Shown: piece by piece, positions 28,740-32,654 of the stretch
Layout of the letters: every line of letters starts with the position of its first letter
Numbering within the stretch: the stretch's first letter is position 1
Origin: Chitinophagia bacterium
GTDB taxonomy: Bacteria; Bacteroidota; Bacteroidia; Chitinophagales; Saprospiraceae
Length of the DNA: 32,654 nucleotides
Direction of reading: 5' to 3'
NCBI GenBank assembly: GCA_009923745.1
Contig: RFSX01000006.1
Location: 1 to 32,654 of the forward strand
Made by a program: the position numbers and the translations under genes
Notes under the pieces: model-generated
Database searches by the model: none
What the model saw: the letters and a program-made list of their open reading frames with translations, nothing else
Told to the model about the DNA's origin: nothing

Positions 28740-29728
28740 ATTCAGGATTTGAGTTTCTCCATCCCTGGTTTCTGGCTTTGATGCTCTTTTTGCCGTTTGT
28801 ATGGTATTGGACGCGCATGGCTGGTAAGCCCAAACTTACATTGCCCCATATTGATCAGTTTTCAGCTAAGCCCGCTTTACGAAGCCGTTTGAGAACCTAT
28901 CTGCCGGTTTTAAGATACCTGGGGCTGATCGCCTTAATCATTGCGCTCGCTAGACCGCGACAAGTTCTGAAAGAAGAAGAAGTACGTGCGGAAGGAATTG
29001 ATATAATCATGGTTATGGATTTATCAAGCAGTATGCTTGCCCGTGATTTTGAGCCGGATCGATTGACAGTGAGTAAGGAGACTGCTAAAAACTTTATTGA
29101 TAAGAGACCCTATGACAGGATAGGACTGGTAGTATTCGCTGGAGAAAGTTTTACACAGAGCCCTTTGACTACAGATCACAGGATTGTAAAAGAATTCCTG
29201 GGATCATTGGAGTCAGGTATGCTGGAAGATGGAACAGCTATCGGCATGGGTCTGGCTTCCGCAGTAAACCGTCTAAAAGAAAGTGATTCGGAAAGCAAGG
29301 TCGTCATTCTACTCACTGACGGTGTAAATAATGCAGGTTATATTAAGCCTATGACGGCCGCCCAAATAGCTCGTGAGTTAAATATCCGGGTATATACTAT
29401 TGGTATAGGCTCAATGGGAGAAGCAATATCCCCTATCAGCAGACGGAGTGATGGGAGATATATATTTGGTTTATCACGCGTGGAAATTGACGAGGAACTT
29501 TTGACGGAGTTATCTCAGCTTACAGGAGGCAAATACTTCAGGGCAACAGATGAAGCAGGTCTCCAGCGCGTCTATGCAGAAATAGATAAGCTTGAAAAAA
29601 CAGAAATCCAATTAAACGTGTACAAAAGATATTCGGAAGAATATCGGTTTTTCTTACTTCTTGCATTTATAACTCTTGGCTTGGAATTCTTGTTGCGGTA
29701 CAGTGTGCTGAGCAAGCTTTCTGAATAA
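28736..29728 (+). CDS. VWA domain-containing BatA-like protein
   Basis: DIIMVMDLSSSMLARDFEPDRL (MIDAS DxSxS), LLTDGVNNAG, terminal TM. Confidence 0.93.
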   Translation: MNSGFEFLHPWFLALMLFLPFVWYWTRMAGKPKLTLPHIDQFSAKPALRSRLRTYLPVLRYLGLIALIIALARPRQVLKEEEVRAEGIDIIMVMDLSSSMLARDFEPDRLTVSKETAKNFIDKRPYDRIGLVVFAGESFTQSPLTTDHRIVKEFLGSLESGMLEDGTAIGMGLASAVNRLKESDSESKVVILLTDGVNNAGYIKPMTAAQIARELNIRVYTIGIGSMGEAISPISRRSDGRYIFGLSRVEIDEELLTELSQLTGGKYFRATDEAGLQRVYAEIDKLEKTEIQLNVYKRYSEEYRFFLLLAFITLGLEFLLRYSVLSKLSE

Positions 29729-29857
29729 AAAAGAAGAGCTTTCTAAACTTGATCACAAGAATTTACTGAAAAGAAGATTGTAAAGATTCATTCCCATTTA
29801 AAAAAGGCAAAGCCCATTGAACGTATCCAATCACTTATCATAAAACCATTAATATTG

Positions 29858-29887
29858 AGCAGTTCTTCTTCAACAATAAGAACTGCT
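29858..29887. repeat. Perfect 10-bp inverted repeat AGCAGTTCTT-N10-AAGAACTGCT
   Basis: Direct reading; no T-tract follows. Confidence 0.7.
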
Positions 29888-30117
29888 AAAGCTAATCTGC
29901 CTGTATATCAGTTAGACGTGAATTAGATAAATAGGACATGAATTGACTGCTAGTTTACAATTTTTAAGACCTTTTATCAAGATATTCTAGTTATTCATAT
30001 TCAAGACTTAACATATGTACCATTCAGACCATTTGTCTGATTTTCAGAAGATTAAGGCCGATTGCTGTGATTAAACGCAAGAATATCAATACATTTATTG
30101 TCTAAGTTGAGTACGCT

Positions 30118-32654
30118 TTGAAGCAGCAGACCTTCTCCCTTTTAATTTCTTTGGTTTTAGGCGTGTCGATGAATTCATTGACGGCACAGAATAACTGTAT
30201 GGAAATACCTGATATCGGTGGTGGCACCTGCACAGGTTGCGCCCCTCCGGGATGGGATATATGGCTGCTTACCCCAGATGTGGTTAACGGAACAAATTGG
30301 GTCGCATGTGCTCTTTCAGGCGTTGGCACATCGCCTAGTGGCGGCAACATGATCATCCTGGATGGCAGTCCAACCAATGTGGAGGGCGTATCTGTTGAAG
30401 TTACGGGCCTAACTCCAGGCACGGTTTATAATATTGGCTTTTACTGGACTGAAGCGTATGCTCAATGCGGTCTTCTAGGTTACGGTGGTGGCGATCTGCT
30501 CATGATTATCGATGGCTTTGAGTATTCCTTCTCAGGTGCCGATGATTGGGAGCTGGCTGAAATATGTTATGGTGCCACCAGTACCAGTGTCGAGATTTTT
30601 CTAACCATCGAATCAGATGACGCCGGCTTGATCGTAATCGATTCCGGAATCTGCGAAGAATTCGAAACCTGTTGTGACCTCGTTGTTGAAGCCGATAACT
30701 CTTATGATATATGCCCAGGCGAATCCATACAACTGGATGCAGAATTTTCTGAAGAGACAGGCACTGTGTCTGTTGAGTGGACATGCCAGCCTGATGATGG
30801 CCTCGACTTTCTAGATGACAGATTTGCTTTAAATCCAATCTTTGAAGTGCCCCTTAATGGCGAATTTGATGGCGAGAGATACATATTTACATTATCCGTC
30901 ACGGATGACGTGTGTACTCGAGAAGAAGAAGTCATCATAGATGTAACGCCCTATATAATTCCAGAATTTGAAATTAGAATTTGTGACCTCTTTGAAGATT
31001 TCCTATTGCCAGAAGTATCAGATGACGGCTACACAGGAAGCTGGTCAGGTGACTTTGACTTTGGATCCCTGGGTGGCACCATCCAGGAATACATTTTCAC
31101 CCTTGACCCTGAGCAGGATAATTGCCTGGAGTCACAATCGTATTTTGTAGAAATCGAAGCCTCCGGGCCAACAACTTTTGATCTGAAAGAGGCCTTTTGC
31201 CAACTGGATCCAAAAGAATATGATTTACCGGTCAACAGTCTCGAGGGATATACAGGACTTTGGGAAATCACCTTTATATCACCGGAAAATCTGACGCCCG
31301 ATTTTTATACCTTCTACTTTTTCCCTGACCTGGATATACATTGTGCGTTACCCTTTGAATACAATTTTGAAATCCGTAATGCCGATAGTCTGAGTTTCAA
31401 TATTCCAACGAGTTTCTGTGTTCAACAAGATGACTATGGTTTACCGTCTGCTTCCCTTGAAGGCATCCAGGGACGCTGGGATGAAGACACCATATATACC
31501 GACATAGCTGGTGTTGTAAGATCTGTTGTTTTTACACCTGAAGAAATTGAGGATTGCTACTTCGAATATGAGCATACTTATGAAATCACGGACAAGCTTG
31601 AGATCAGTTTTCCCATTGCAGATACATTATGCAGAAGAATAGGCTATTATGAATTGGATACTCTCAGCAATGAAGGATACTCGGGGACCTGGGATCCGCC
31701 CGCCTTTCTTTTGGACACAATAAGTTCAGATTTTGTCCGCTCTGTCTGGACACCCAATACTGGTCAATCTGTTTGCCTCAGTGAAACAGAAATAATAATC
31801 CAGCTAAAGCCTGTCGTCGAGACAACAATCGAATTACCTGGAAGATATTGCCAGAACTCTGGTGTCTTTGTGCTACCGAACATCTCCACTATGAATGCTA
31901 TTCCCGGAAGCTGGGATGATAATCTAATTGAAACGGATAGTCTTGACCCCGGGACATATACCAGGAGTTTTCTCCCGGACATGGGCTTTTGCTACAGTGA
32001 CTTTCAGTACAGTTTTGAAATAGTTGAAGAGCAAACACCAAGTTTTAATCTGATAACCGGACTTTGTGAAAGCCAGCCTGCTATCACTCTTCCGCTTATT
32101 TCAAATGAGGGATTTACGGGCCAATGGAGTATCCCGGAAATCGACCCTTCGGCTATTCCAACGAATACGATAAGAAGTATATTCACCCCTGATGCAAAAG
32201 ATTCCTTATGCCTTTTGGATTATGAAGTTGAATTCGTTTTAGATGAAAAAATAGACCCTGCCTTTTCATTAGACTCAATTATTTGCTCTGAATTAGCTAC
32301 TTTAGAATTTCCTTCCACTGCTGATAATGGCATTGCAGGAGAGTGGAGTACAAGCTTGCTTGACTTTCAGAATATAAGTACGCAGGAGTTTAGCAATTAT
32401 TTCCTGCCTGAGGATACTGCATGCTACAACCCCATAGAGCTAGAATTTCAATTGATACGGGCCGATTTGCTGACGGTTACCAAACAAGACTTGAGTGATT
32501 GTTATGCTGACGATGGATTGATTGAGATTAACGGAGGAAACAACAATTTTGAGTATTCTATTGACGGAGGAATAAGCTGGACAAATAACAGCACATTTAA
32601 CGGTCTTCAAACAGGCGATTATATTGTGATGGCACGTTCTACCCTGGATACATT
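30118..32654 (+). CDS. Large secreted multi-repeat surface/adhesin-like protein, TTG start, truncated by window end
   Basis: Continuous open frame from TTG 30118 (upstream in-frame TAA 30103-30105) to window end; signal peptide MKQQTFSLLISLVLGVSMNSLTAQ|NNC; N-terminal beta-sandwich-like domain, PKD/Ig-like segment, seven ~71-aa repeats, then SprB-like FEYSIDGGISWTNNSTFNGLQTGDYIVMARS. Confidence 0.9.
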   Translation, partial: MKQQTFSLLISLVLGVSMNSLTAQNNCMEIPDIGGGTCTGCAPPGWDIWLLTPDVVNGTNWVACALSGVGTSPSGGNMIILDGSPTNVEGVSVEVTGLTPGTVYNIGFYWTEAYAQCGLLGYGGGDLLMIIDGFEYSFSGADDWELAEICYGATSTSVEIFLTIESDDAGLIVIDSGICEEFETCCDLVVEADNSYDICPGESIQLDAEFSEETGTVSVEWTCQPDDGLDFLDDRFALNPIFEVPLNGEFDGERYIFTLSVTDDVCTREEEVIIDVTPYIIPEFEIRICDLFEDFLLPEVSDDGYTGSWSGDFDFGSLGGTIQEYIFTLDPEQDNCLESQSYFVEIEASGPTTFDLKEAFCQLDPKEYDLPVNSLEGYTGLWEITFISPENLTPDFYTFYFFPDLDIHCALPFEYNFEIRNADSLSFNIPTSFCVQQDDYGLPSASLEGIQGRWDEDTIYTDIAGVVRSVVFTPEEIEDCYFEYEHTYEITDKLEISFPIADTLCRRIGYYELDTLSNEGYSGTWDPPAFLLDTISSDFVRSVWTPNTGQSVCLSETEIIIQLKPVVETTIELPGRYCQNSGVFVLPNISTMNAIPGSWDDNLIETDSLDPGTYTRSFLPDMGFCYSDFQYSFEIVEEQTPSFNLITGLCESQPAITLPLISNEGFTGQWSIPEIDPSAIPTNTIRSIFTPDAKDSLCLLDYEVEFVLDEKIDPAFSLDSIICSELATLEFPSTADNGIAGEWSTSLLDFQNISTQEFSNYFLPEDTACYNPIELEFQLIRADLLTVTKQDLSDCYADDGLIEINGGNNNFEYSIDGGISWTNNSTFNGLQTGDYIVMARSTLDT
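30961..32460 (+). repeat. Seven tandem protein-level repeats of 70-73 aa (30961, 31171, 31390, 31603, 31822, 32035, 32251)
   Basis: Each unit has consensus F-x-[IL]-x(3-5)-C ... LP-x-x-S-x-x-G-x-x-G-x-W ... [FW]-x-P ... C ... [FI]-x-[IL]; GSW/GLW/GRW/GTW/GSW/GQW/GEW in order. Confidence 0.9.

Follow-up and report, generated by a model that had tools for sequence, protein, structure and literature searches.

N-terminal half of a probable T9SS type B surface adhesin from an uncultured Saprospiraceae bacterium, with a stalk of putatively disulfide-pinned domains

Many enzymes are counted among the cargo of the T9SS (PMC11205867), whereas the type B substrates described to date have known or predicted roles as adhesins (PMC12618676). 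Such type B substrates, SprB among them, are gliding or surface adhesins of large size and repetitive build with a signal peptide; an adjacent PorP/SprF shuttle gene is a common, though not obligatory, trait of this type, and in F. johnsoniae 3 of the 12 type B substrates are orphans (PMC12618676). Small beta-sandwich repeats such as Big_4, Ig_7, and PKD-like domains are found in surface stalks, and a Thr-rich repeat of the form PTFTQLGPYCVGDxPxxLPTTSDNGVSGTWxPxTIxTxxxGxxxYTFTPxxGxCA (L012, L016, L024, and others) has neither a Pfam nor an NCBIfam model, the nearest curated match being a partial Big_4 score in one Thr-rich array. Moreover, a Saprospiraceae genome encodes T9SS type B surface proteins without an assigned role by the dozen, with 29–38 PF13585 matches per near-complete genome of the genus considered here.

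The window, i.e., the whole stretch of DNA under analysis, is one entire contig of 32,654 bases belonging to an assembly of 1.77 Mb that is 79.5% complete; as a result, the gene at its end runs off the contig and is represented by its 5' part, the features of which are collected in Table 1. This part likely encodes the N-terminal half of an adhesin that an uncultured Saprospiraceae bacterium exports to its surface as a T9SS type B substrate, with a stalk built of disulfide-pinned domains. Upstream, about 390 bases (29728–30118) separate a BatA-like gene from the surface protein gene, and the relatives L056, L057, and L058 carry a TPR/Bat-type gene of 510–535 aa between the same two genes; tblastn detected no trace of it in the window, so that it was either lost or the assembly was wrongly joined.

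Table 1. Features of the surface protein gene at the end of the window.
Feature	Positions	Strand	Remarks
Large secreted surface protein gene, 5' part	30118..32652	+	845 aa within the contig; probable TTG start; frame open at the contig end
Predicted Sec signal peptide MKQQTFSLLISLVLGVSMNSLTAQ	30118..30186	+	sequence by eye
N-terminal Cys-containing (Cys-rich) domain, probable beta-sandwich head	30187..30657	+	without Pfam match
PKD-like domain, weak	30667..30951	+	PKD_4 E = 0.047; K319L-like PKD E = 0.024
Two-Cys unit 1	30952..31167	+	72 aa
Two-Cys unit 2	31168..31389	+	74 aa
Two-Cys unit 3	31390..31602	+	71 aa
Two-Cys unit 4	31603..31821	+	73 aa
Two-Cys unit 5	31822..32037	+	72 aa; least position-specific, 32/90 best matches
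Two-Cys unit 6	32038..32256	+	73 aa; fold predicted (AlphaFold)
Two-Cys unit 7	32257..32469	+	71 aa; fold predicted (AlphaFold)
Second repeat class, first unit (~75 aa; Asp-box motif SIDGGISW)	32470..32652	+	cut by contig end

The central part of the encoded protein is an array of seven units (30952–32469), each of 71–74 aa and each containing exactly two Cys. The original prediction had drawn the borders of this array correctly within three residues and had described units of 70–73 aa; their regularity stands, and the range itself is to be replaced by the measured one. In the alignment of the window's seven units, a Cys, the G-x-W, and a second Cys are the only invariant columns, as had been read for every unit, and the identity between units amounts to 19–34% at the protein level and 36–49% at the DNA level, the latter bearing out the low DNA identity that had been anticipated. 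When an HMM built from six units was used to score the seventh, every real unit reached 30.2–55.2 bits, as compared with best scores of 10.7–18.9 bits in the shuffle control (about 1,900 shuffles per unit); the repeat array is thus genuine, its scores lying far outside those given by chance. Its composition (D+E 18.2%, T 7.9%, His 0.4%, pI 4.05) is acidic and not Thr-rich, in accordance with the first description, as against T of 17–23% in the typical Thr-rich members of the repeat class. Acidic units also occur outside the window's gene, in a relative from another genus (L008; E 11.6%, T 7.6%).

Profile and sequence searches of Pfam, NCBIfam, and PDB returned no entry that matches the two-Cys units; the expectation that an HMM of the seven units would not prove an exact member of a named family thereby holds for the curated families. 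A Cas5b match (E 0.007–0.012), far below the 97-bit cut-off, is attributable to chance on a repetitive protein, and the lysozyme and calreticulin entries returned by the PDB sequence search, which align only over the G-x-W stretch, are chance matches as well. A search with a profile built solely from the seven units of the window gave matches in 29 of 100 genomes sampled from the family (almost all from another genus), and the matched proteins comprise acidic versions together with typical Thr-rich arrays (e.g., PTFTQLGPYCVGDSPDALPTTSDNGVSGTWDPSTIS...YTFTPANGECA). Since the profile reaches this Thr-rich class, the proposed kinship to the Bacteroidota repeats with a LPTTSNNGITGTWSP...FTPxxGQC core, i.e., the LPTTSNNG class, is substantiated. 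A joint alignment of 26 units retains C, G, W, P, and C as invariant residues, and the profile derived from it also gives matches elsewhere in the phylum, in further families and orders (with E of 0.001 or better in 11 of 248 genomes). The window units display the features by which the class is recognized, namely two Cys framing LP..S..G..G.W and F.P within about 70 aa. Literature searches on the motif letters and on Saprospiraceae adhesin repeats found nothing. The protein family thus contains, at a fixed count, a repeat class that has a nearly invariant Cys pair and lacks a curated model; with such a model, many surface proteins could be annotated.

At about 32461–32470, the array yields to a different repeat class. 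The original prediction had recognized this change and had called the new class SprB-like; the change is real, and the name does not hold, as the SprB model PF13573 matches neither the array nor 32470–32652 up to E = 10 and the resemblance is one of outline only. After the array of the relatives L056 and L059, several units of about 75 aa follow, with an Asp-box-like motif (YSIDNGxxWQ or YSIDxGxxWQ) and Cys of their own. In the window (32470–32652) and in the relatives, this class gives weak matches only, to Asp-box/BNR, Reelin subrepeat B, CHB_HEX_C, and Y_Y_Y models, and weak, sub-cut-off matches to PF13573 among the relatives are confined to the C-terminal part of two.

Colinear relatives along all 845 residues are present in the same genus with complete frames of 1466–1623 aa, and those with named contigs all come from uncultured Saprospiraceae. 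The best three relatives share 54, 50, and 47% identity with the window's protein over about 820–840 residues and follow the MoxR-DUF58-Bat genes, as in the window; owing to this same position, they are likely orthologues. The remaining genus relatives are paralogues, and the more distant genus relatives, of 29–39% identity, occur several per genome. In the complete relatives, a signal peptide, a beta-rich head, a PKD-like domain, the two-Cys array, and Asp-box-type repeats of about 75 aa follow one another in this order, after which come further SprB- or PKD-like stretches and finally a T9SS type B C-terminal domain. PF13585 (CHU_C) scores above its cut-off in 4/4 complete relatives and TIGR04131 in 2/4, with one more just under (34.2 vs. 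35 bits). The C-terminus of the window's gene lies beyond the contig end; hence, its T9SS type B C-terminal domain is predicted from the sequences of its orthologues and other relatives.

No PorP/SprF shuttle gene was found adjoining the relatives examined, so that the surface protein would be of the orphan type. In three near-complete genomes of the genus (G100, G104, and G105), the PF11751 matches lie elsewhere in the genome, and DNA polymerase I is among the various genes downstream of the relatives. Its gene begins 36–99 bases after two of the three likely orthologues, on the same strand (L057:11378–14194 and L058:11187–13970). These three genomes contain 10–13 shuttle genes versus 29–38 PF13585 domains, and the sharing of shuttles by orphan type B substrates may therefore be common there.

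The lack of a shuttle gene next to the relatives examined would also suit an enzyme or soluble protein that is released by the T9SS into the medium, in which the array would be a spacer and the N-terminal domain would be carbohydrate-binding or catalytic. Such a protein is unlikely, however, given that domain searches found no catalytic family in any of the four complete relatives and that type B substrates have so far belonged with the adhesins, even though the N-terminal head domain has no family match in profile searches, which leaves room for catalysis, and enzymes are numerous in T9SS cargo. In the most likely reading, the protein is an adhesin that would be exported by Sec and the T9SS and anchored at the surface through the type B domain at its C-terminus. 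Its stalk would consist of the seven small beta domains of Ig-like type and, behind them, a second set of Asp-box-type beta repeats, and would hold the beta-rich N-terminal head at a distance from the cell, where the head would bind another cell, a polymer, or a surface.

The fold of units 6–7 was predicted by AlphaFold with 24 aligned rows, for which the array was divided into disjoint two-unit pieces. The resulting model (pLDDT 90.8) is all beta with one short helix turn per unit; in it, the first Cys falls within or at the first strand, and the second immediately precedes the last one. A single-sequence prediction of units 3–5 (pLDDT 28) was discarded. In a Foldseek search of the PDB, most of the matches to the two-unit model are tandem domains of Ig-like or cadherin-like type and domains of bacterial surface proteins, the latter including SraP, InlK, intimin, and S-layer proteins, all of them weak; none falls below E 0.001, and the best reaches E 0.089 with a TM-score of about 0.3. 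Taken together, the evidence is best read as an Ig-like domain pinned by a disulfide, though it does not amount to proof. Indirect support for the bond comes from a profile with both Cys columns masked: of the 249 distinct full-context units that it identified, 246 retain the pair. One of the three exceptions reflects a miscount caused by a longer loop, and the other two, from other proteins, have no second Cys. One intra-unit disulfide probably pins each domain, joining the domain start to the last hairpin; both the single disulfide per unit and the rigid rod shape of the array that the original prediction had put forward are plausible.

Two Cys at fixed places in every unit would equally permit bonds between neighboring units or between molecules, from which a covalent fiber or sheet would result with no intra-unit bond. 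This arrangement is improbable, because this Cys pair persists across proteins that have from a few to more than 12 units and very different neighbors, and because their modeled positions at the first strand and before the last are compatible with a bond inside the domain. That the units instead bind a metal or another ligand through Cys and acidic residues, with no disulfides, is very improbable despite the acidity of the array (pI 4.05), since there are just two Cys per unit and His is nearly absent (0.4%), the Thr-rich relatives keep the Cys without the acidity, and the invariant columns hold no acidic residue.

The most interesting feature of the array, which probably is the stalk of an adhesin, is its fixed unit number. 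The comparison of unit numbers envisaged by the original prediction was carried out on relatives: seven units are present in the window, in all nine closer genus relatives, and in one colinear protein of 1519 aa from another genus, and six units are present in two more distant genus relatives. When single units were compared with whole proteins, the best match was the unit of the same number in 491 of 630 cases (about 90 by chance) and, for the window's own units, in 55 of 63; this position specificity is highest in units 1–4 and lowest in unit 5. In an alignment of seven proteins (A2), moreover, each of the 14 Cys and each of the seven G-x-W is conserved without exception. The fixed count of seven and the matching of same-number units indicate that the expansion to seven predates the gene duplications within the genus, and no later homogenization of the units is visible. 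A recent tandem expansion is rejected in view of the low DNA identity and of the units matching their own positions in other proteins; conversely, the view that these repeats are old and selected is borne out by the fixed count and by position-specific conservation across paralogues and genera. It is conceivable, though doubtful, that the array is a length-fixed stalk, i.e., a molecular ruler, the unit number and order of which are held by selection throughout a multi-copy family and across genera because the head needs a set height above the cell surface, unlike in the variable Thr-rich arrays. Fixed versus variable unit numbers offer a natural test of selection on stalk length.

When compared with the known systems, the window units resemble the Thr-rich repeat in their length, their two Cys, and their F..C....LP..S..G..G.W....F.P..C core; they differ in being acidic, Thr-poor, only 19–34% alike, and fixed at seven, whereas the Thr-rich arrays are often longer or consist of near-identical neighbors. 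The Big_4, Ig_7, and PKD-like models, which describe similarly small domains, do not match the window units. GhpA (grappling hook protein A; PDB 9flu), a giant surface protein of Aureispira, which likewise belongs to the Saprospiraceae, is among the structures retrieved by Foldseek; its fold match is weak (E 0.54, TM-score 0.28) with no sequence match to the units, and it serves as a lead only. With SprB and the other type B substrates, the protein has in common its large size, its repetitive build, and a predicted signal peptide, and its relatives end in TIGR04131/PF13585; as differences, no adjacent porP/sprF was found for the relatives examined, and the Pfam SprB repeat matches neither the array nor the repeat that follows. 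The array is probably an adhesin stalk and, as such, departs from a design common in Bacteroidota without constituting a new system.
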